Position numbers and translations under genes: made by a program
Part shown: positions 1,969-17,028 of the stretch, piece by piece
How the letters are laid out: each line of letters begins with the position of its first letter
Position numbering within the stretch: the first letter of the stretch is position 1
The notes under the pieces: generated by a model
Seen by the model: only the letters and a program-made list of their open reading frames with translations
Told to the model about the DNA's origin: nothing
Database searches by the model: none
Source of the DNA: Anaerolineae bacterium
Lineage (GTDB): Bacteria > Chloroflexota > Anaerolineae > Aggregatilineales > Phototrophicaceae
Assembly (NCBI GenBank): GCA_025454525.1
Contig: JALOOG010000028.1
Location: forward strand, 1 to 38,997
DNA: 38,997 nt
Direction: 5' to 3'

Positions 1969-2688
1969 TTATGCGGGGGTTTCGCTCTCTAAGGTAAATA
2001 CCGCACGCTCAAACACCGGATTCATCACCACGTTGATCGGTTCAATCTCAAACGCGGGTTCTTGATCCCAATAGGCCGCTAACTTCGCGGGCAGTAAGAT
2101 CCCGTCAATTTCTACCAGATCTTCCGAAAGTCGCATCACAAATTGTTGGGTGCGTTGCGTCTCTGGGTTCACACATTCCACCTGCACCGCTTCGATCGTG
2201 TAATTAGGACGTAAGTGGACGCTGACTTGATCGTTGATCTGGGTGTTGGTTGCGTTAAAGCTACTGGGGCCATTTTGGGACAATTTGACAAAGCCCTCAC
2301 CCAAGGGGGTCAACAGGATCGCCGCGATCGCCCATAACCGCCGCCGCAAATAATTGATACTCGCTTCATCTGTCACTATAGACGGGGTTTTATTGCCGCG
2401 CCCTTGACGATATTCCCCATCGCATAACGCTTCGATCCCTCGTTGGATCGGCAACCCTAACGGCTTGACCGTAAAATCCCAGCGCATCGCGTTCGGAAAT
2501 TGAAAATAAGCGGTGGAGTCTACAGGAACACTGGTGGCAACCGGGCCCAATTTCACCCGTGCGCGTCCCTTAAAATGGACTTGCAACGCATCTAAAGCGA
2601 TCGGATGTAAGCCGTAACGCGCCTCAAGCGCTTTTTTTAAGAGGTCTTTGGCTACGGGATCGCCATAGGCAAGCAATAAAATTGGCAT
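1969..2688 (-). CDS. Unknown protein, last gene of the sulfur operon
   Basis: About 239 residues from ATG 2688. This start is preferred over ATG 2703 because only it has an upstream AGGA at proper spacing. I do not recognise the family. There is no signal peptide or clear membrane segment. The start MPILLLAYGDPVAKDLLKKA could resemble a small nucleotide-binding or regulatory fold, and a weakly hydrophobic stretch (RRRLWAIAAILLTPLGEG) lies near the middle. The C-terminal half is beta-rich by eye. It is the sixth gene of the operon, about 85 bases after the E1-rhodanese gene, so a role in sulfur or methionine metabolism is possible but unsupported by motif. Confidence 0.7.
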   Translation of the reverse strand: MPILLLAYGDPVAKDLLKKALEARYGLHPIALDALQVHFKGRARVKLGPVATSVPVDSTAYFQFPNAMRWDFTVKPLGLPIQRGIEALCDGEYRQGRGNKTPSIVTDEASINYLRRRLWAIAAILLTPLGEGFVKLSQNGPSSFNATNTQINDQVSVHLRPNYTIEAVQVECVNPETQRTQQFVMRLSEDLVEIDGILLPAKLAAYWDQEPAFEIEPINVVMNPVFERAVFTLESETPA

Positions 2689-2772
2689 AATATTCCTAGT
2701 CATCCGGTGAAATTCTGCAAGCTATTCTAACAGTTCACCGGACAACCGAACAGAAAAATTTACGTTTGTAAC

Positions 2773-4014
2773 CTAGTACGTTGGTAACGACGGGTCAATC
2801 TCTTTGGCCCATGCCAAGATCCCGCCTTCAAGATTGACCATTTGAGCGCGATCATAACCGACCTCAGTGAGCATCTCGATCACATCGGCGCTCCGTTTAC
2901 CGGATCGGCAATGCACCACGATCTCGCGGTGTTCAGGGATCTTGGCTAATACCGTTTCCTCACGCAAGCGGCGATGACCTAACACCGCATTTTTTGCGGC
3001 CAAGATGTCCCCTTTCGGGATTCGCAATGTGCCGTCTAAGGCGACGATCTCCCATTCATGCGGATCACGCACATCCATGATCAACAGATCTTCGCCGTGA
3101 TCGATCCGAGTTTTTAATTCTGTCACCGTGATCGATCGCATCGGCACGGTTTGAGATTGATCGTGTACCGTAAAGGTGCTGCGATCATGGGCTGGCATCC
3201 CGCAAAACAGTTCATAATCGATCAGCGTCACTTGTTCTTTCGGAAGGCTACACACCGGACAATTCGGGTTTTTACGCACGCGAATCGTGTTAAAGCTCAT
3301 CTCTAGCGCATCGTATAACAACATGCGCCCGATCAACGGCTCACCGATGCCTAACAGGATCTTGATCGCTTCGGTCGCTTGGAGTGTGCCAACCGTGCCG
3401 GGCAGAATCCCCAACACGCCGCCCTCCGCGCAACTTGGCACTAAGCCGGGAGGCGGTGGTTCTGGGAACATACAGCGATAACATGGGCCCTGTTCCGCCC
3501 AAAAGACACTCGCTTGCCCCTCAAACCGGAAGATGCTGCCATACACGTTCGGTTTTCCCAGTTTCACACACGCATCATTCACGAGGTAGCGCGTGGGGAA
3601 ATTATCTGTGCCGTCGATGATCACATCATAGGACTCGAATAGTTCTAGCGCGTTTTCAGAGGTCAACGGCACATTGTATTTTTCGATCGTGATGTGTGGG
3701 TTGATGTCTTTCAGGCGTTTTTCGGCGCTGTCCAGTTTCGACATGCCCAAGGTGCTTTGACCGTGGATCACTTGGCGATGTAAATTGCTCTCATCCACCA
3801 CATCGTAATCCACTAGACCGATCCGCCCGATCCCCGCCGCCGCGAGATACAACGCGGTCGGACTACCGAGTCCGCCCGTGCCGATCAATAACACACTGGC
3901 GCTTTTGAGCCGCCGTTGCCCTTCGATCCCTACCTCTGGCATGATCAAATGGCGGCTATAGCGTTTCACTTCTTCATTCGATAATTCGGCCGATACTTCT
4001 ACCAATGGCTGCAT
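2773..4014 (-). CDS. moeB: MoeB/ThiF-type E1 adenylyltransferase fused to a rhodanese sulfurtransferase
   Basis: 413 residues. The N-terminal E1 domain (about 10-260) adenylates the C-terminal Gly of a ubiquitin-like sulfur carrier. It shows the ATP loop GTGGLGSP, the LHRQ segment, DGTDNFPTRYLVND and two zinc cysteine pairs (CYRC and CPVC). The C-terminal rhodanese domain (about 295-405) carries the persulfide Cys in VVHCRSGKRS. This is the MoeZ/HcyF-like fusion able to both activate and thiolate its carrier. Its gene lies 42 bases after the GGR carrier gene and has GAGGAG before the ATG. Context beside metX and metY, with no molybdopterin genes in view, argues for homocysteine rather than molybdopterin synthesis. 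A dual role cannot be excluded. Confidence 0.92.
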   Translation of the reverse strand: MQPLVEVSAELSNEEVKRYSRHLIMPEVGIEGQRRLKSASVLLIGTGGLGSPTALYLAAAGIGRIGLVDYDVVDESNLHRQVIHGQSTLGMSKLDSAEKRLKDINPHITIEKYNVPLTSENALELFESYDVIIDGTDNFPTRYLVNDACVKLGKPNVYGSIFRFEGQASVFWAEQGPCYRCMFPEPPPPGLVPSCAEGGVLGILPGTVGTLQATEAIKILLGIGEPLIGRMLLYDALEMSFNTIRVRKNPNCPVCSLPKEQVTLIDYELFCGMPAHDRSTFTVHDQSQTVPMRSITVTELKTRIDHGEDLLIMDVRDPHEWEIVALDGTLRIPKGDILAAKNAVLGHRRLREETVLAKIPEHREIVVHCRSGKRSADVIEMLTEVGYDRAQMVNLEGGILAWAKEIDPSLPTY

Positions 4015-4056: not shown

Positions 4057-4329
4057 CTATCGCCCGCCCGCGATGCTAGGGATGATCCGCAACGGCGAAT
4101 CGTTTTGGACTTCGGTATCGAGTCCTTGTAAAAAGCGCACGTCTTCATCACCAACGAAGATATTGACAAAGCTACGGGGTTCATCGCCATTAAACAAATG
4201 GGGCTTGAGATCCGGATAGCGCGTCACCAGATCGCGCAAGGCCGCGCCCACCGTATCACCATTGACCACCACTTGCGCTTGATTATCGGTATACGCCCGT
4301 AACGGCGTAGGAATTTTAATGGATGGCAT
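4057..4329 (-). CDS. ThiS/MoaD-like sulfur carrier protein with a C-terminal Arg after Gly-Gly
   Basis: 90 residues from ATG 4329, chosen over ATG 4362 because AGGAG lies 10 bases upstream and the product then begins MPSIKIPTPLRAY, as CysO-type carriers do. It is a small beta-grasp protein: a short first strand, a helix around VGAALRDLVTRYPDLKPHL, then strands FVNIFVGDEDVRF and the tail SPLRIIPSIAGGR. The codons at the end read GCG GGC GGG CGA TAG, so Gly-Gly is followed by one Arg. In the family the thiocarboxylate forms on the terminal Gly, hence the Arg should need removal, and a JAMM protease is encoded in the same operon. Its likely partners are the E1-rhodanese downstream and MetY upstream. 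Confidence 0.9.
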   Translation of the reverse strand: MPSIKIPTPLRAYTDNQAQVVVNGDTVGAALRDLVTRYPDLKPHLFNGDEPRSFVNIFVGDEDVRFLQGLDTEVQNDSPLRIIPSIAGGR

Positions 4330-4377
4330 AACAGACTCGCTCCTAAAATGGGCTGATTTCACCAGACAAATAACACG

Positions 4378-5577
4378 TCAATTGCTGACAGATAAACTGA
4401 TCGGGAGCGCCTCACGTTCCCACTGACTCCGCAAATACCCGCCGATCACTTGAGTCATGGTTTCGACTTCAACCAGAAACGAGTCATGACCAAAATAAGC
4501 GGTAATGCGCTCATAACGCACCGGACGGCCGATCGTTTCTAAAACTTCAACCAATTCCCGCGCTTGTGCATCGGTATAGAGCCAATCACTGGTAAAACTC
4601 ACCACCAAAAATTGCGCTTGCGACCGACGTAACGCCGCTTCAATCGACTCATGGCCATGTGCGACATCGTAATAATCCAAGGCCTTGGTGATATACAAGT
4701 AGCTGTTGGGATCAAACCGTTCGGTAAACTTGACCCCTTGATGATGCAAGTAGCTTTCCACCGCAAAATCGACATCAAAGTGATAACCGAGTGTCGATCG
4801 GTTTTGCAAGCGCCTCCCGAACTTCTGCTCTAACGAGTATTCACTCATGTAGGTGATATGTCCGATCATGCGCGCAACCGCCAACCCCGCATCCGGATAA
4901 TCCCCGTCATAGTAATTGCCGTGTCGCCATTGTGGATCGGCGTAGATCGCTTGCCGTCCGATCTCGTTAAAGGCGATGTTTTGCGCGGAGGAGCGCGGGG
5001 TGCTGGCGATAAACAAGACGTGTTTCACCCGCCCCGGATGATCGACCGACCATTGCAAGGCTTGCATCCCGCCCATGCTGCCTCCGGCCACCGCGAACAA
5101 CGTTTCGATCCCCAAATGATCCAGTAGGAAGGTTTGAGCGCGCACCATATCCGCGATCGTCACCACCGGAAAACGCAGCGCGTAAGGTTTGCCGTCCGTT
5201 GCAAGCGAAGAAGGGCCGGTGCTGCCTCGACAACCGCCGATCACATTGGAACAGATCACAAAGTAACGATCGGTATCGAACATCTTGCCCGGCCCGACCG
5301 CCTCATCCCACCAGCCCGGTTTTTCCTCTGGATCATCGGTGTAATAACCCGCCACATGCGAGTCCCCCGATAGCGCATGACAGATCAAGATCGCGTTGGA
5401 ACGCTCCGCGTTAAGCCGCCCGTAAGTCTCATAAGCCAACGTGAACATCGGCAACGATCCGCCGGAGGCTAACGGCAAAGGCCGGTTAAACTGGACAAAT
5501 TCACGGCGCACCACCCCCACCGAATGCGGGTCATAGCGGCGTACCGGACGACGAGGCAACCATTGGCGTAAGTTCAT
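4378..5577 (-). CDS. metX: Homoserine O-acetyltransferase MetX
   Basis: 399 residues, normal for the family. It transfers acetyl from acetyl-CoA to homoserine, giving the substrate for MetY. It is an alpha/beta-hydrolase fold enzyme. Visible are the HALSGDSHVAG segment, the nucleophile elbow GGSMGGMQALQW (Ser near residue 167), the Asp region SFTSDWLYT and the catalytic His region YFGHDSFLVE near the C-terminus. GGGAGGAG lies 8 bases before the ATG. The gene sits between metY and the sulfur carrier with 79- and 48-base gaps, consistent with one transcript. A succinyltransferase activity is possible in this family but less likely next to metY. Confidence 0.95.
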   Translation of the reverse strand: MNLRQWLPRRPVRRYDPHSVGVVRREFVQFNRPLPLASGGSLPMFTLAYETYGRLNAERSNAILICHALSGDSHVAGYYTDDPEEKPGWWDEAVGPGKMFDTDRYFVICSNVIGGCRGSTGPSSLATDGKPYALRFPVVTIADMVRAQTFLLDHLGIETLFAVAGGSMGGMQALQWSVDHPGRVKHVLFIASTPRSSAQNIAFNEIGRQAIYADPQWRHGNYYDGDYPDAGLAVARMIGHITYMSEYSLEQKFGRRLQNRSTLGYHFDVDFAVESYLHHQGVKFTERFDPNSYLYITKALDYYDVAHGHESIEAALRRSQAQFLVVSFTSDWLYTDAQARELVEVLETIGRPVRYERITAYFGHDSFLVEVETMTQVIGGYLRSQWEREALPISLSVSN

Positions 5578-5656: not shown

Positions 5657-7000
<1,344 letters not shown>

Positions 7001-7041: not shown

Positions 7042-7470
7042 TCACTCATGAATGACGAGTGCTGACTCGTCAAATTGACTCCGATCGGCCCGTAAGCGCC
7101 AAACGCGCATTTCGACGGCTTGTGAATCGATGACCGAAGTGATGATGTAGACAAAATTGGGCAAGGCGTGATCGCGATCGTAAATCGACGGGATCGCAGG
7201 AGAATCGGGATGACTGTGATAGTAACCGACGAGGATGAGGCCTTTGGCATCGGCTTCATCTTCTAAGCGCGCCCAATCTAACGGAGTCATGGCGTAACGG
7301 TGATATTGTTCGGCGGCCTCAAACACATTTTCGACTTGGGTAATATCGCGAATGGTGATCTGATCGCCCACGCTTTCGCCTAACAGAAAGCCGCCTCCTT
7401 CATTCGGATACGTCCCTTCCATCTGCCCGAAAATTCGTCCTTGTAAGTCTCGCGTTAGCTGAATGTGCAT
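7042..7470 (-). CDS. JAMM/Mov34 metalloprotease (Mec/HcyD-like)
   Basis: 142 residues, a single JAMM domain. The zinc motif is complete: an upstream Glu in YPNEGGGFLLGE, then HSH, seven residues, and SIYD, i.e. HxH-x7-SxxD. In bacteria such small JAMM proteins cleave after the Gly-Gly of sulfur carriers: Mec+ on CysO-cysteine, QbsD on QbsE, HcyD on HcyS. It is the first gene of the operon, 74 bases before metY, and directly follows a leader with an intrinsic terminator. The likely substrate is the GGR carrier encoded three genes on, either to strip the Arg or to release a homocysteinyl adduct. Confidence 0.93.
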   Translation of the reverse strand: MHIQLTRDLQGRIFGQMEGTYPNEGGGFLLGESVGDQITIRDITQVENVFEAAEQYHRYAMTPLDWARLEDEADAKGLILVGYYHSHPDSPAIPSIYDRDHALPNFVYIITSVIDSQAVEMRVWRLRADRSQFDESALVIHE

Positions 7471-7499
7471 AATGTCCCTTGATCACTTCCTTAGCTTAT

Positions 7500-7693
7500 C
7501 AAAAAAAAACAGGTCAACATCCCAAAAGACGTTGACCTGTTCGTGTTTCGATACCGGAGATTGGCACGGTAAATCGGTCAAGCGTCCCTTCTGAGTCGCG
7601 ACTCGCAACACATACACATGCTACAGCGTTGAGAGTTGATCATGACCACATCCATATTCCGTGCAAACGATCAGAGATCGATTTCCCTGAATT
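7500..7693 (-). ncRNA. Structured leader RNA with switchable terminator upstream of the sulfur operon (class unknown)
   Basis: Read on minus, the leader can form helix P2 (GCACGG 7664-7659 with CCGTGC 7569-7564) enclosing P3 (GGTCA 7647-7643 with TGACC 7580-7576). It also has local hairpins CGATC-TCT-GATCG (7680-7668) and GAGTC-GC-GACTC (7604-7593). TTGACC (7581-7576) can instead pair with GGTCAA in the 5' arm of the terminator that ends the leader, so P3 and an antiterminator exclude each other. That is the layout of an OFF-type riboswitch or attenuator. A further pairing, GATACC (7699-7694) with GGTATC (7555-7550), would close the structure only if transcription starts upstream of 7699. I do not recognise a SAM-I, SAM-II, cobalamin or T-box core. 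A free-standing small RNA such as 6S is an alternative. Confidence 0.5.
7501..7541 (-). terminator. Intrinsic terminator 30 bases before the sulfur operon
   Basis: On minus, AACAGGTCAAC (7541-7531), a 12-base loop and GTTGACCTGTT (7518-7508) form a perfect 11-bp stem. It runs into nine consecutive T, two of which are in the stem. It ends about 30 bases before ATG 7470 of the JAMM gene and no gene ends upstream of it on this strand, so its natural role is transcription attenuation rather than ending a gene. Confidence 0.88.
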
Positions 7694-7699
7694 GGTATC

Positions 7700-7728
7700 A
7701 GATTAGCGCACTTCTGTTTTTTTGGCAA
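7700..7728 (-). promoter_or_regulatory. Candidate promoter of the sulfur operon leader
   Basis: On minus, TTGCCA (7728-7723), 17 bases, then TAATCT (7705-7700). The predicted start near 7693 lies at the beginning of the structured leader. The -10 is only a 4 of 6 match, so a further upstream promoter remains possible. Confidence 0.45.
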
Positions 7729-7759
7729 GCGCTTTAATGAAATCTTTAAACGTTTAGCA

Positions 7760-7788
7760 TTGTGAGGGGGTTAAGGGGGTGTTATACT
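7760..7788 (+). promoter_or_regulatory. Candidate promoter of citrate synthase
   Basis: TTGTGA (7760-7765), 17 bases, then TATACT (7783-7788). The predicted start near 7795 gives a leader of about 80 bases, which holds a small inverted repeat CCCTG/CAGGG (7821-7836) and the AAGGAGA ribosome binding site. Confidence 0.55.
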
Positions 7789-7876
7789 GCCCATCAGTTT
7801 CTCACGATTGCGTTGACAATCCCTGAATCGACAGGGTTGAATTACAAATTTTTTTCTTCAAGGAGATTTCCCTAAT

Positions 7877-9028
7877 ATGACTGAAGTAACGACTGCTCAA
7901 AAGGGTTTACAGGGTGTTGTAGTTGGTAATAGCGTGTTGAGTCTGGTAGACGGTGAAAACGGCCGCCTGATTTACGGCGGTTATAAGATCGAAGATCTGG
8001 CCGAAAACGCCCTCTATGAAGAAGTGGTTTACTTATTGTTCCATGGCCGCTTGCCGAACGGAGCTGAATTACAAGAATTTACCGCGCATCTGGCTAAAGA
8101 AGCCGTGGTTCCCGCCCAGATCATCGACTTCATGCAAACGCAACCCAAAGATACCAACGGCATGGCCATGTTACGCACCACCACCTCCATGTTAGCGCAT
8201 TATGACCCCGAAGCAGAGGACATGAACATTGACGCGGTGCGCCGCCGTTCCTTCCGATTGATCGGGCAGTTGACCACGCTATGCGCGGCCTGGATTCGCA
8301 TCAGTCAAGGCAAAGACGCGATCGCGCCCAAGCCTAACTTTAACCTTGCCGAAAACTTTGTCTACATGATCACCGGTGACGAAAACTTGGATCGCGCCGC
8401 GGTGGATGCGATCAACGTTTATCAAGTGTTGTTAGCCGAACATGGCATGAACGCCAGCACCTTCACCGCCCGCGTAGTGACGGCCACCGGTGCGGATCTG
8501 TATAGCGCAATCGTGGCGGCGATCGGCGCGCTCAAGGGGCCCTCACATGGCGGCGCGAACAGCGAAGCGATGAAGATGTTCCTTGAGATCGGCGATCCTG
8601 GTCAAGTGGATGCTTGGTTCACCGAGAACATTAAATCCGGCAAACGCCGCATCATGGGGATCGGCCACCGGATCTACAAGGCATTAGACCCCCGCGCCAA
8701 CATTTTGAAGGCAAAAGCGCAAGCCTTAGCCCAAAGCTCTGGCAACGGCACTTGGTTTGAACTCGCGGCCAAGTTAGATGACACCGCCCGCGCCGATGAC
8801 TATTTCATTGAACGCAAGTTATACGCCAACGTCGATTATTACAGCGCGATCGTGTTATACACGCTCAATATCGACATCGATATGTTCACCCCCCTGTTTG
8901 CGATGAGTCGCGTGGCGGGTTGGACAGCTCATGTGATCGAACAATTAGGCGATAACCGCTTGATCCGTCCGGATGTCAATTATGTTGGGCCGATGGATCT
9001 GCAATGGACTTCGGCCGATCAACGTTAG
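7877..9028 (+). CDS. gltA: Citrate synthase
   Basis: 383 residues, the short bacterial type. It condenses acetyl-CoA with oxaloacetate to citrate at the entry of the TCA cycle. The catalytic residues are visible: His in LKGPSHGGANSEAM, His in GIGHRIYKALDPR, and Asp in NVDYYSAIVLY (usual form VDFYSG). The N-terminus GVVVGNSVLSLVDGENGRLIYGGYKIEDLAE is the usual small-domain start. AAGGAGA lies 10 bases before the ATG. It is transcribed alone, divergent from the sulfur operon, and ends at a strong terminator. A 2-methylcitrate synthase activity cannot be ruled out, but no propionate genes are nearby. Confidence 0.95.
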   Translation: MTEVTTAQKGLQGVVVGNSVLSLVDGENGRLIYGGYKIEDLAENALYEEVVYLLFHGRLPNGAELQEFTAHLAKEAVVPAQIIDFMQTQPKDTNGMAMLRTTTSMLAHYDPEAEDMNIDAVRRRSFRLIGQLTTLCAAWIRISQGKDAIAPKPNFNLAENFVYMITGDENLDRAAVDAINVYQVLLAEHGMNASTFTARVVTATGADLYSAIVAAIGALKGPSHGGANSEAMKMFLEIGDPGQVDAWFTENIKSGKRRIMGIGHRIYKALDPRANILKAKAQALAQSSGNGTWFELAAKLDDTARADDYFIERKLYANVDYYSAIVLYTLNIDIDMFTPLFAMSRVAGWTAHVIEQLGDNRLIRPDVNYVGPMDLQWTSADQR

Positions 9029-11943: not shown

Positions 11944-14673
11944 TTAAGGGATGTGGCCCGGACACCCGCTATTTTGCGGTGGGCCGGGGTCAAACGGACA
12001 ACTATCTTCAGGATCGGGTGTGCCGTCCCCGTCGCTATCGGGGGGGATAACCGGACATCCATTCCCATGAATCCCATAGCCTTGATCGCCTTCATCCGGA
12101 CATGAGTCACTCGGATCGGGAACTCCATCCCCATCACGATCCGGCGGGGGTAATGGACACCCAGAACCATCTACCCCATAGCCATTTGAGCCTTGATTCG
12201 GGCAAGAGTCATTCGGATCCGGAACCCCATCCCCATCTGCATCTAAGATCGGACAACCATTGCCATAAACCCCATAACCCACTGACCCTTGATTCGGGCA
12301 AGCATCATTGGGATCGATGACACCATCTCCATCGCTGTCTGCGGGCGGAGGCGGATTCGGACATCCGGTGCTATCAATGCCGTGGCCTTCATTGCCGCGG
12401 CGCGGACACGAGTCGCTAGGATCTGGGATTCCGTCTCCATCGGTATCGGGAATCGGCGTGGGATTCGGACATCCGGTGCTATCCACGCCTTGACCTTCAT
12501 TGCCACGACGCGGACACGCATCCCGCGAATCAGGAATGCCGTCTCCATCGCTATCTTGACCGACCGCGGTGGGAACAATAGGACATCCCCGCCGATCGAC
12601 TCCGTGGCCTTGACTGCCTTGATCCGGGCAAGCATCGATCGGATCGGCCACGCCGTCAAAATCGCGATCCCCAGCTTGGGTGGGACGTGGGGTGCTGGTC
12701 GCACGTTGATCCGAGGGAGTCCGCGTAGGGGTGCGTTGTGTACCATCAGGAGTCGCGGTCAAAGTGCTACCGCAGCCATTGGTGGCACGACTACCGACTT
12801 GATCGGGACATTGATCGGAATCTCCGAACACTTGATCTTGATCCGAATCCACCAAAGCGATCAAACAAGCAGGGATCGCTTGTAAATCGCGTAAATCACG
12901 CGTGAGATCATAAAAGCGCAAGGCTTCGGCATAATCGATCGGCGTGGAGTCATCGATCGTTTCATCCAAGCGATTCAGATCGATCGTGAATTGTTGCCCT
13001 TCTGTCAGTTGATGCTCTTGATCGGTGATCTGAAGTTGACATTGACCATCGTAACAGCTAAATGTGACCTGTTTTGTAAACGGACGATAAGCGACGGAAA
13101 GGCAAGCGCTATTGGAGGTAAAACGCACATTGCGATCCTCTTTGAGGATCACCAGCACCCCGTTTTGAGCATATTGTCCATTTTCGATAAAAACCGCACC
13201 CTCTGGTTCTAAGAGCAGATCAAGGTCGTTTTCATCAATGTCATCGATCGTCAAGGCGGTATCAGGCATCAGATACAACACAGCGGGTTGTTCGGCATTC
13301 TGCCCCCCGTCCGCGATCAGATAACGCGCTTCACGTTTAGCATCAATCGCCTCACCTTCGATCACCTCGCTAGAGGTCGTGCCATTGGCGGTGAAGATCA
13401 AGCCCGCGCCCCGTATACTGGCGGTAGGACGGACGGTACTGGTCGCAGACGGGGTAAAGGTGATCGTGGGGGTGAAGGTAAAGGTCGGACTTATGATCGT
13501 CTCGATCAACGTCGGACTCGATTCCACGGTAGGCGCAAGGGTATCTGTGGGGAGATCGGTGTTTATTTGAGCGATCACCTCCGGCGTGGTATCGGTGGAT
13601 GAGTTGGAATTGAGCGCAAGCGCGCCCATCAAACCGATCAAAACGAGTGCGATCGCGATCACCCCCCCAAACACATAACGACGATCCACCGAACGCGGAT
13701 CGATCGTGGGAAGTGAGATCGAAGGGCGTGAACGTGTACCGGACGGGGTAGGCGGCGCAAGTAGAGTGCGATCGATCTTCTTACGGTTAACGGGTTCAGT
13801 AAAAAAGCCGTTCGCTACGCCGGAATCCGCCGCCACCGCTCGCGAAAAGGCATGTGCAAAGGCCCCGACCGAAGGATAGCGATCTTCTGCATCTTTGGCC
13901 ATCGCCTGCGCTAAAACTTCGGTAATTTCGGGAGAGAGGTCATCACGGATCACATGCACTGCTTCGGCATCTTCATACAGATGTTTGTGCATCAATTGGA
14001 AGGGTGTGGCAGCCGCAAAAGGCGGTTGACCACTTAAAAGGCGATAGACCAACACGCCTAGCGCGTATTGATCAGCGGCCGGAGTCAATTCCTCATTCCG
14101 CCATTGTTCCGGCGGCATATAAGTCGGTGTGCCGATCGTCATCCCGGTACTGGTGAGTCCGGTGGTTGCATCCATCAATTTTGCGATCCCAAAATCAGCA
14201 ATATAGGCATTGCCTTGATCGTCAAACATGATGTTGCTGTCTTTAATATCCCGATGAATCACGCCGCGTTTATGGGCATAATCCAAGCCGCTGGCTACTT
14301 GCTGAAGCATTTGTGCCACTTCGCCTAAAGACGGTAAGGGGTTTTTACTCTGGTGACGTTGAATCATTCGATCGCTCAACGTGCCTCCAGTTAAAAGACG
14401 CATCACCAGATAGGTATTGCCGCGTTGTGTGCCGTAATCAAAGACGGGGACGATATTGGGGTGTTCCAAAGCGGCGGCGGTTTCGGCCTCGCGATTAAAA
14501 CGCTCCACATAGCCCGGTTGCTTGGCAAATTCGGCGGGTAAAACCTTTACTGCGCGATCCACATTTAAATTAGTTTGACGCGCCCGATAGACCGTTCCCA
14601 TCCCGCCTTGTCCGATGAGTTCAATCAGGGTGTAATTTCCAAACGTTTGACCAGAAAAATCTCTAAATTGCAT
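11944..14673 (-). CDS. Membrane Ser/Thr protein kinase with thrombospondin type 3 repeats (kinase 1)
   Basis: 909 residues. The cytoplasmic Pkn2-type kinase domain covers about 14-275, with Gly loop GQGGMGTVYRA, Lys43 in AVKVLP, catalytic HRDIKDSN, DFG in IADFGIAK and MPPEQW. One membrane segment follows near 330-352, then a Thr/Pro-rich linker. Next comes an unknown module of about 200 residues (YLIADGGQN through the TFSCYDGQCQ segment to IPACLIALV), shared with the kinase at 17199. Eight thrombospondin type 3 repeats of about 30 residues fill the C-terminus (consensus DxDGDGxxDxxDxCP...GCP), the Asp-rich calcium-binding kind. The repeats should lie outside the membrane. The start matches that of its paralogues (MQFRDFSGQTFG). 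A terminator sits just upstream, 17 bases before the ATG. Confidence 0.93.
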   Translation of the reverse strand: MQFRDFSGQTFGNYTLIELIGQGGMGTVYRARQTNLNVDRAVKVLPAEFAKQPGYVERFNREAETAAALEHPNIVPVFDYGTQRGNTYLVMRLLTGGTLSDRMIQRHQSKNPLPSLGEVAQMLQQVASGLDYAHKRGVIHRDIKDSNIMFDDQGNAYIADFGIAKLMDATTGLTSTGMTIGTPTYMPPEQWRNEELTPAADQYALGVLVYRLLSGQPPFAAATPFQLMHKHLYEDAEAVHVIRDDLSPEITEVLAQAMAKDAEDRYPSVGAFAHAFSRAVAADSGVANGFFTEPVNRKKIDRTLLAPPTPSGTRSRPSISLPTIDPRSVDRRYVFGGVIAIALVLIGLMGALALNSNSSTDTTPEVIAQINTDLPTDTLAPTVESSPTLIETIISPTFTFTPTITFTPSATSTVRPTASIRGAGLIFTANGTTSSEVIEGEAIDAKREARYLIADGGQNAEQPAVLYLMPDTALTIDDIDENDLDLLLEPEGAVFIENGQYAQNGVLVILKEDRNVRFTSNSACLSVAYRPFTKQVTFSCYDGQCQLQITDQEHQLTEGQQFTIDLNRLDETIDDSTPIDYAEALRFYDLTRDLRDLQAIPACLIALVDSDQDQVFGDSDQCPDQVGSRATNGCGSTLTATPDGTQRTPTRTPSDQRATSTPRPTQAGDRDFDGVADPIDACPDQGSQGHGVDRRGCPIVPTAVGQDSDGDGIPDSRDACPRRGNEGQGVDSTGCPNPTPIPDTDGDGIPDPSDSCPRRGNEGHGIDSTGCPNPPPPADSDGDGVIDPNDACPNQGSVGYGVYGNGCPILDADGDGVPDPNDSCPNQGSNGYGVDGSGCPLPPPDRDGDGVPDPSDSCPDEGDQGYGIHGNGCPVIPPDSDGDGTPDPEDSCPFDPGPPQNSGCPGHIP

Positions 14674-14761: not shown

Positions 14762-16999
14762 TTATGGCGGACTGGGACAACCGTTGAAACGCCGCCGCCC
14801 TGTTTCAAACGGGCAATCGTCATCCTCATCAAGCACCCCGTCGCCATCTTCATCATGATTACACGGATCACCGACAGGATCGTGATAAGGATCGTTTACA
14901 CAGTCATCATCCGGATCAAGAATCCCATCGCCATCGCTATCACCGGGCAGAATTGGGCATCCATTTTCACCCACGCCATATCCCTCATCGCCTCGCTCTG
15001 GGCATTCATCATAAATGTCAGACACACCATCATCATCCCCGTCGCCGACCGGGCAGCCGTTTTCATAAACACCGTGTCCCTCATCCCCTTGTTCCGGGCA
15101 TTCATCATAGAGGTCAGACACCCCATCGTTATCCCCATCGCCAATGGGACAGCCGTTAACGTAGATCCCGAACCCAAAATCCCCTTCATTCGGGCATTCA
15201 TCGCGGGAATTGGGGACTCCATCGCCGTCATTATCGCGGATCGGACATCCATCGCTATCGATTCCCGCGCCGCGATCCCCTTGATTCGGACAAACATCGC
15301 GATTATCGGGGACTCCATCGCCATCGCGATCGGTTACGCCGGGGTTTTCGTTCGGTAGTGGGGTATGGGTTGGGATCACAAGGGTCGGAGTCGCCGTGAA
15401 GCGTGGAGCGGGTTGGGTTTGAGCAATCGTGATCGCGACTCCAGTTGGGTTGATCCGCACGGTACTTGCGCTAATCCATGCGGTGCTATTACGATCGATG
15501 CGTTTGATCAAATACCATTGACGATCGCGTGATTGTGCCAATACTTCTAATTCTGTGCCGCGCACAAAGTTCGCGACCACGTTAAAACTTGTGCCGGGAC
15601 CGCTCCGCAAATTAGCGGTGACGGTGATGATCGTAGCCGTGATCCGTGTCGTGGCTAAGGTGAGCGCGCCGCTGTCTAAGGTATTGCCGGCCGTTGGGGT
15701 TAGGGTCAAGGTTGGGCTTGAGATCTTGGTCAATAACGCGGTGAAAGTCTCGGTTGGCGTTAGCGTGACCGTAGGCTTATCGGAATTATTGATCACTTGG
15801 GCGACGTTGGTCTGATAGATCTCCGTTAAAATGGGAGAGTTAAACGGATCTTCATCCAGATCAGCCCGTGCATCAAATGGACGTGCAAAAGCAAAGATCG
15901 CCACCCCCATCGCAAGGATTAAGGTGAGTAGGACAATGATGAACACCGAAGCGGGTGAAATCCCCCGCGAGGTCGGTGGCATCATCAGCGCAGGTGGGAT
16001 CGGAGGCACTGGAGGCGATGGGGCCGACGGTGCAAGCGGTGTCGTAAAAATGGGGGTTGGGGTGGTCATGACATCGGTCATCGCGGGACGGGGCGCGGGA
16101 CGCGATACGATCACCGGCATGGTAAAAAATTGGGTGGTCGCTTTTTGTGTATCGTTGATTGCCTCATCAAATGCACGGGAAAAGGCCATCACATGGGTAT
16201 AACGATCATCGGGATCTTTCGATAAGGCCCGTGCCAGAACCAATCCCACCGATTCCGGCAGTTCTTCGCGCACGCTGTGGGCTAACGGGGCGGCCTCAAA
16301 AATGTGTTTGTGCATCAATTGATAGGGAGTCAGCGCATCAAACGGAAAACTTCCCACCACCAATTGATAGACCATCACCGCTAAAGCATATTGATCGGCG
16401 GCGGGGGTCAAATTGCCGCCGCTCCATTGTTCCGGCGGCATATAGAGCGGTGTGCCGATCGTCAAACTAGATCCGGTGAGGCCGCTGGTCGCATCCATCA
16501 ATTTCGCAATGCCAAAATCGGTGAGATAAGCATTGCCTTGTTGATCAAACATCACGTTGCTGTCTTTGATGTCCCGGTGGATCACACCGCGGCCATGAGC
16601 ATAATCCAAAGCGCTGCTGATCTGCCGGAGCATCTGTGATACTTCACCCAGACCCGGCAAAGCGACTCCTTGACGGGCGCGCTGTGCCATGCGATGACTT
16701 AAAGTGCCGCCGTGCAGCAAGCGCATCACCAAGTAACTTGTACCACGTTGCGTGCCGTAATCAAAGACGGGGACAATGTTCGGATGTTCTAAAGAAGCGG
16801 AGGTTTCAGCCTCACGGGTGAAACGTTCCACATATCCCGGATTTTCGGAAAAAGCAGAAGGCAAGACCTTCACCGCACGTTCAACTTGTAAATTGACCTG
16901 AATCGCTCGGTAAACCGATCCCATGCCACCTTGACCGATGAGTTCAATCAGTTGGTATTGGCCAAAGGTTTGCCCTGAATAATCAATGAATTGTTGCAT
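14762..16999 (-). CDS. Membrane Ser/Thr protein kinase with SH3b domain and thrombospondin type 3 repeats (kinase 2)
   Basis: About 745 residues from ATG 16999. A TTG at 17017 is also in frame, but the ATG gives MQQFIDYSGQTFGQYQ, matching the paralogues. The kinase domain shows GQGGMGSVYRA, AVKVLP, HRDIKDSN, TDFGIAK and MPPEQW. A membrane segment (SVFIIVLLTLILAMGVAIFAF) lies near 345-370, then a Thr/Pro linker. An SH3b-type domain (TVTANLRSGPGTSFNVVANF, about 455-515) follows, a fold that often binds peptidoglycan or peptides. Six thrombospondin type 3 repeats end the protein; the fifth is atypical (DDDCVNDPYHDPVGDPC). The module shared by the other two kinases is absent here. Confidence 0.92.
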   Translation of the reverse strand: MQQFIDYSGQTFGQYQLIELIGQGGMGSVYRAIQVNLQVERAVKVLPSAFSENPGYVERFTREAETSASLEHPNIVPVFDYGTQRGTSYLVMRLLHGGTLSHRMAQRARQGVALPGLGEVSQMLRQISSALDYAHGRGVIHRDIKDSNVMFDQQGNAYLTDFGIAKLMDATSGLTGSSLTIGTPLYMPPEQWSGGNLTPAADQYALAVMVYQLVVGSFPFDALTPYQLMHKHIFEAAPLAHSVREELPESVGLVLARALSKDPDDRYTHVMAFSRAFDEAINDTQKATTQFFTMPVIVSRPAPRPAMTDVMTTPTPIFTTPLAPSAPSPPVPPIPPALMMPPTSRGISPASVFIIVLLTLILAMGVAIFAFARPFDARADLDEDPFNSPILTEIYQTNVAQVINNSDKPTVTLTPTETFTALLTKISSPTLTLTPTAGNTLDSGALTLATTRITATIITVTANLRSGPGTSFNVVANFVRGTELEVLAQSRDRQWYLIKRIDRNSTAWISASTVRINPTGVAITIAQTQPAPRFTATPTLVIPTHTPLPNENPGVTDRDGDGVPDNRDVCPNQGDRGAGIDSDGCPIRDNDGDGVPNSRDECPNEGDFGFGIYVNGCPIGDGDNDGVSDLYDECPEQGDEGHGVYENGCPVGDGDDDGVSDIYDECPERGDEGYGVGENGCPILPGDSDGDGILDPDDDCVNDPYHDPVGDPCNHDEDGDGVLDEDDDCPFETGRRRFNGCPSPP

Positions 17000-17028
17000 A
17001 AACCAACCTAACGTCAATGAATGCTTAG

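Follow-up and report, generated by a model that had tools for sequence, protein, structure and literature searches.

What controls the transcription of a sulfur operon in an Anaerolineae bacterium (GCA_025454525.1), and which signal does the control read? The question is raised by an intrinsic terminator found shortly before the first gene of the operon on contig JALOOG010000028.1, of which positions 1 to 38,997 were analyzed (hereafter the window). The original prediction for this region was an unrecognized riboswitch or attenuator, sensing SAM, methionine or a sulfur metabolite.

The sulfur operon and its terminator

The operon is on the minus strand and starts with a JAB/M67 metalloprotease gene (7042..7470), whose product scores over the cut-off of Pfam PF14464 and below that of the NCBIfam desampylase model, and which we take to be Mec/HcyD-like. 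It is followed by genes for MetY, an O-acetylhomoserine sulfhydrylase (5657..6967; TIGR01326), MetX, a homoserine O-acyltransferase (4378..5577; NF001209), a ThiS/MoaD-type sulfur carrier protein with the C-terminus GGR (4057..4362; PF02597), and a ThiF/MoeB adenylyltransferase with a rhodanese domain (2773..4014; PF00899 and PF00581), all over the respective cut-offs. A sulfur carrier, a ThiF-type activase, a JAMM/M67 protein and MetY are found together, which by gene content is the make-up of a putative protein-thiocarboxylate operon for Met/Cys biosynthesis. A protein-thiocarboxylate pathway of this kind is reported from Wolinella.

Other genes were observed in and around the operon. On the 3' side of thiF (1969-2703, minus strand) there is a gene for a 244-aa protein with no match in Pfam or NCBIfam, and a similar gene follows thiF in L037. 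In relatives, the operon after M67 contains a 277-284-aa protein that seems sulfurtransferase-like by eye (L046, L057, L078, L084, and L096) and a 150-159-aa membrane-like protein (L033, L037, L046, L057, L058, L084, and L089). Elsewhere in the window, two adjacent proteins (11944-14673 and 14762-17017, minus strand) look like serine/threonine protein kinases in translation, and both carry long C-terminal Asp-rich DxDxDGxxD repeats, by eye similar to thrombospondin type 3.

The gap before the operon is bordered by the start of the M67 gene (7470) and by a divergent citrate synthase gene (7877, plus strand). No ORF of at least 80 aa in the window's ORF list ends between them, in agreement with the earlier claim that no gene ends upstream. 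The terminator hairpin occupies 7542-7507 on the minus strand, with a perfect core of 11 bp (AACAGGTCAAC/GTTGACCTGTT) and a run of nine T (7509-7501) that ends 30 nt before M67, exactly as predicted. It was the one terminator found by scanning the minus strand, against a shuffle mean of about 0.3-0.5, and its segment folds at -23.7 kcal/mol (z -4.68 against shuffles). The fold of the whole leader is better than 200 of 200 dinucleotide shuffles.

A cysteine-rich ORF in the leader

Between the gap border and the terminator we found a short ORF (7655-7578, minus strand), assigned by sequence, encoding the peptide MDVVMINSQRCSMCMCCESRLRRDA. Its start codon is provisional, with in-frame alternatives at GTG 7649 and ATG 7643. 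The codons TGT ATG TGT TGC (Cys-Met-Cys-Cys; 7616-7605) form the putative regulatory cluster, with an additional Cys codon at 7625-7623, and Cys clusters are found in the leaders of relatives too.

A -35-like hexamer TTGCCA (7723..7728) and a -10-like hexamer TAATCT (7700..7705), both on the minus strand and separated by 17 nt, form the probable promoter (7728-7700). By our own count this pair has 8 of 12 consensus bases, and the assignment comes from comparison with relatives, in which position and spacing are the same and TAATCT is also the -10 box. The pair was under the threshold of a consensus promoter scan, which returned no promoter on the minus strand of the window. Transcription would start at about 7692.

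Where relatives have a leaderless ATG, 7 nt past the -10 box, the window has ATT. A leaderless start at this ATT was considered and rejected, since its frame is out of the Cys frame and ends before the Cys cluster. Leaderless ORFs of the mycobacterial type begin with an ATG that coincides with the transcription start or adjoins it; by sequence such an ATG is present in 88 of 122 relatives but missing in the window, whose leader is an exception among them. No strong Shine-Dalgarno sequence was seen by inspection before 7655 or 7643. An assembly error is a possible cause of the missing start signal.

Mutually exclusive pairings

According to the original prediction, TTGACC (7581-7576) can pair either with an upstream GGTCA or with GGTCAA in the 5' arm of the terminator, each pairing excluding the other. 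All three elements are correct (GGTCA at 7647-7643, GGTCAA at 7537-7532), and two aspects had been missed: the pairing extends to 14 base pairs, and the stop codon of the Cys-rich ORF (TGA, 7580-7578) is within TTGACC. We name as segment 1 the GGTCA (7643..7647), which can pair with segment 2 in the full-leader fold, and as segment 2 the 5' strand of the antiterminator (AAGGGACGCTTGACC, 7576..7590), which holds the stop codon. Segment 3, the 3' strand (GGTCAACGTCTTTT, 7524..7537), is at the same time part of the terminator 5' arm and loop; all are on the minus strand. The predicted antiterminator (7590-7576 with 7537-7524, one bulge) begins 14 nt past the last Cys codon. To judge from the sequence, this placement relative to the Cys codons and the stop is the geometry of ribosome-mediated attenuation.

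The antiterminator segment folds at -19.9 kcal/mol, a modest result against shuffles (z -2.10, with 7 of 200 as good), and the matched duplex of the window has -18.6 kcal/mol (z -4.7 against shuffles), a value matched by 1% of the segments from other genera when paired with the window terminator. The duplex of segments 1 and 2 in the window (-14.4 kcal/mol) is weaker than its own mismatched mean (-16.3 kcal/mol).

Folding was repeated with masks whose widths were set from ribosome footprints. An RNA cut off at 7523 and masked over the Cys codons is predicted to fold into the antiterminator. With the mask on the stop codon the antiterminator is excluded, because the mask itself covers segment 2. 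In the full RNA at equilibrium the terminator wins in every masked case, including that with the ribosome on the Cys codons. When free, the full RNA pairs GGTCA with TGACC, and the RNA ending at 7523 lacks this pairing and folds into the antiterminator, so that the folding of the window RNA gives no support to termination as the outcome expected when translation is absent. Since the masked full RNA prefers the terminator and the untranslated RNA to 7523 folds into the antiterminator, the switch must depend on timing.

We consider it highly probable that the element before the operon is a ribosome-mediated transcription attenuator with a Cys/Met-rich leader peptide. The peptide would be translated while the RNA is being made. 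When charged tRNA-Cys (here possibly also Met-tRNA) is scarce, the ribosome would stall at 7616-7605, leaving segment 2 free to pair with segment 3; the terminator would then come too late, and the M67-metY-metX-thiS-thiF operon would be transcribed. When cysteine is plentiful, the ribosome would reach the stop codon and cover segment 2, the terminator would form, and transcription would end.

Leaders before M67 in relatives

In the order of the window 154 genomes were searched, and an M67 protein was found in 122 of them (E <= 1e-20); the regions upstream of all 122, up to 420 nt, were analyzed. We looked for an ATG-initiated ORF having 2 or more Cys within 9 codons, with 3-10 nt allowed after TTGnnn-N16-18-TAnnnT. 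Such leaderless-type ORFs were found in 88 genomes, always starting 6-8 nt after the -10-like box (7 nt in 69, 8 nt in 10, and 6 nt in 9). Applied to the 122 reverse strands, the rule found none, and 20 dinucleotide-shuffle sets yielded 0.5 on average and 2 at most; with 3 Cys, 74 genomes remained, against 0 on the reverse strand and a shuffle mean of 0.1. The -10-like box begins 12-14 nt before the leader start. According to PMC3160421, leaderless genes are marked by a TANNNT box some 12 nt ahead of the start, and the agreement in spacing suggests that these 88 leaders are probably leaderless. A degenerate promoter-ATG pattern run over the window's own genome was uninformative, with 5 matches against 5 in the backward control.

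Six more leaders, including that of the window, were added by looser rules, making 94 from 27 genera. A hairpin and a T run follow each one of them by a lenient finder without a null control of its own. Both TGT and TGC are used in 70 of the 94, as expected if the meaning of the codons matters.

No leader was recognized by these rules in the remaining 28 of 122: in 3 the region is truncated by a contig end, in 17 cysM lies immediately upstream, and 8 are unexplained (G001, G012, G048, G052, G058, G104, G113, and G145). Like the window, genus g18 (G034) is without a leaderless ATG, and its GTG start was taken by eye. In L015 (genome G025), the codon 7 nt after the -10 box is ATC, in frame with the Cys cluster, which could be a non-AUG leaderless start or a result of drift.

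Outside the order, 40 of 52 matches in other orders of the class were checked, with the start codons relaxed to ATC, ATT, GTG or TTG, and four leaderless-type Cys ORFs were found, three of them before cysM. Short Cys-containing ORFs before cysM in other orders (L209, L218, and L205) read HCLCLRRGS, YCLCLRRGS and VCMCSGAGQ up to the stop, so the device may predate the order. The same operon type and leader were also observed in L069 and L041, from records titled Pleurocapsa minor and Proteobacteria bacterium; these titles may reflect mixed or misassigned assemblies, since L069 matches a genome of the window's order.

Matching of the pairing segments across genera

The sequences of the antiterminator pairing vary from genus to genus. 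We compared the duplex energy of the stretch after the last Cys codon with the terminator 5' arm and loop, within a genome and between genomes. Matched antiterminators are more stable than mismatched ones (-14.6 vs -12.3 kcal/mol), being better than the mean with other genera in 73 of 94 leaders and in 25 of 27 genera; the two exceptions, g19 and G021, go in the wrong direction. With one genome per genus, the sum z of the matched antiterminators is -7.1, and five controls with shuffled segment 2 gave -0.9 to +1.2. In relatives, the median gap between the last Cys codon and the start of the pairing is 17 nt. Plain shuffles of segment 2 are a weak test of the antiterminator (median z -0.88, with 28 of 94 below -2), and the within-genome matching is the stronger one. 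For segments 1 and 2, too, pairing follows lineage across genera, with z -4.7 and five controls between -0.3 and -1.7, but the window's own duplex does no better than mismatched ones.

Leaders before cysM and the amino acids probably sensed

A second leader is found in the window's genome, encoding MFTYLCCCVCHQPGR and followed by T runs, before a gene for a CysM-like cysteine synthase (best model TIGR01138, below cut-off). The cysM gene is present in 119 of the 154 genomes, and 70 of the 119 upstream regions were examined. Strong leaders, defined by at least 3 Cys in 6 codons and a T run, were found in 51 of these; 4 regions have none and 15 are weak or doubtful. For these leaders a T run situated 50-200 nt past the stop was taken to mark the terminator, with no hairpin fold required. 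In several genomes the peptides end with CLKRGR or CLKQGR. M67 directly follows cysM in 17 members of the order. Further upstream in 8 of these there is a Cys-rich ORF, with at least 4 Cys within 9 codons, such as MNTMRQNCMCCMCEKRGR, and the 6 that were read out are all before cysM. Since Cys leaders precede cysM as well as the M67 operon, cysteine seems to be the common signal.

Methionine behaves differently at the two loci. Of the operon leaders, 52 of 94 have Met codons interspersed with the Cys codons, vs 0 of 51 cysM leaders, a comparison in which the room for Met is 237 vs 31 non-Cys residues, respectively. When flanks are included, Met makes up 106 of 584 residues in operon leaders vs 17 of 520 in cysM leaders (48 genomes). 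Within 47 paired genomes, Met is found among the Cys codons in the operon leader only in 28, in the cysM leader only in none, and in neither in 19.

The presence of Met also follows gene content. Where MetY lies no more than 3 kb away, 17 of 18 loci show Met among the Cys codons, vs 11 of 42 loci without it (Fisher p 1.3e-6, with kinship ignored); a MetY farther off would be missed by this radius. Seven of 67 named loci were left out, five without a leader row, L097 with no MetY or ThiF in view, and L041, which was unmatched to a genome. As genus g17 supplies 27 of the 42 MetY-less loci (outside it, 8 of 15 have Met), the independent evidence for the association is modest. The window leader, with MCMCC and with MetY and MetX in the operon, fits the pattern of dual sensing, which we regard as likely but unproven. 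Taken as read from the leaders, the codons suggest sensing of cysteine throughout and of cysteine plus methionine in many met operons. The signal is likely to be charged tRNA-Cys, with Met-tRNA in many lineages, and not SAM or another free metabolite.

Alternative explanations

It is very improbable that the leader peptide acts mainly through translation-dependent Rho control or translational coupling, with the hairpin being secondary. Such a reading has a precedent in Actinobacteria, whose Cys leaders lack conserved terminators and for which Rho was proposed (PMC1262725); here, however, the hairpin and T run stand after all 88 + 6 leaders (by the lenient finder mentioned above), and segment 2 matches the hairpin 5' arm or loop lineage by lineage.

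A new metabolite-sensing riboswitch, responding to SAM, Met or another sulfur metabolite, with the terminator as expression platform and the Cys codons as a coincidence, is very improbable. The leader does fold well (z -3.44) and the operon is related to methionine and sulfur. Against this, the part that recurs is a Cys-rich frame with mixed Cys codons, whose spacing from a promoter-like box is constant (88 of 122), and a similar peptide precedes a cysteine synthase gene. The covariance search against Rfam that had been recommended gave no match in the whole window to any riboswitch, T-box or other family at the gathering score. With E <= 10 in 7400-7900 there was again no riboswitch or T-box, the single hit being SNORA40 (E 1.1, plus strand, below cut-off). 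The riboswitch and the T-box were dropped as main readings for want of Rfam support. Of the two mechanisms first proposed, a riboswitch is thus very unlikely here; the termination switch itself is strongly supported, with both structures lineage-matched, and in place of the proposed sensing of SAM, methionine or a sulfur metabolite we find a Cys-codon reading frame that recurs in relatives. The variable sequence of the antiterminator may be the reason why Rfam holds no matching model.

That the terminator belongs to another transcript, or to a free-standing small RNA lying before the operon by chance, is hardly credible: the window promoter is below the scan threshold, but no ORF of at least 80 aa ends upstream, the order of leader ORF, terminator and M67 recurs in 94 genomes of 27 genera, and the Rfam searches described above matched no RNA family at its cut-off. 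A match to 6S RNA or another free-standing RNA had been named in advance as one that would refute the switch.

Comparison with known attenuators

In the attenuators of trp, his and ilv operons, leader segments pair alternatively, the stop codon is at segment 2, and more than one amino acid can be regulatory. The ribosome-mediated attenuator proposed here has the same layout, differing in its Cys and Met codons and in the leaderless-type initiation of relatives. Leaderless polycysteine short ORFs were reportedly described in mycobacteria by Canestrari et al. in 2020. In contrast with those, the present leaders are in another phylum and before another operon, have an intrinsic terminator with a lineage-matched antiterminator, and in many cases interleave Met with Cys, and the leader in the window is not of the leaderless kind.

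The candidate Cys leaders described from Actinobacteria (PMC1262725) are short ORFs with runs of Cys codons, placed upstream of cys or cbs genes. The short ORF with a Cys run is shared with our leaders, but conserved terminator hairpins are absent there, whereas terminators and matched antiterminators recur here. The uORFC-8-2 motif before cysS in Rhodobacterales (PMC8632094) has tandem Cys codons followed by an intrinsic terminator and is read as ribosome-mediated attenuation, like our case. It differs in its target (a tRNA synthetase), in being from Alphaproteobacteria, and in having a consensus RNA structure, while the pairing sequences here vary by genus. A survey from 2010 states that leader peptides were known from Proteobacteria and Actinobacteria only, before it added Firmicutes (PMC2965389). 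In the open-licence literature we found no leader-peptide attenuator described in Chloroflexota.

A possible sulfur regulon in Anaerolineae

These leaders could belong to a regulon extending over a whole order of Anaerolineae (Aggregatilineales and kin), a proposal for which we see belief and doubt evenly balanced. Its leader peptides, many of them leaderless, would read sulfur supply with codons that suit the operon behind them. Those before cysteine synthase, and before most M67-thiS-thiF operons in one large genus, would use Cys alone; where metY/metX are part of the operon, Met would be added. If true, attenuators would be seen, from sequence, to acquire or drop a second sensed amino acid when the operon takes up or sheds genes, a natural experiment in which the sensed amino acids change with operon content. 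The family unites initiation that looks leaderless with a Cys sensor and with an intrinsic terminator whose antiterminator varies by genus. It suggests that unannotated attenuators could be hunted through leaderless short ORFs instead of RNA structure. A further hint is that, to these cells, the thiocarboxylate sulfur operon may serve cysteine and methionine alike.
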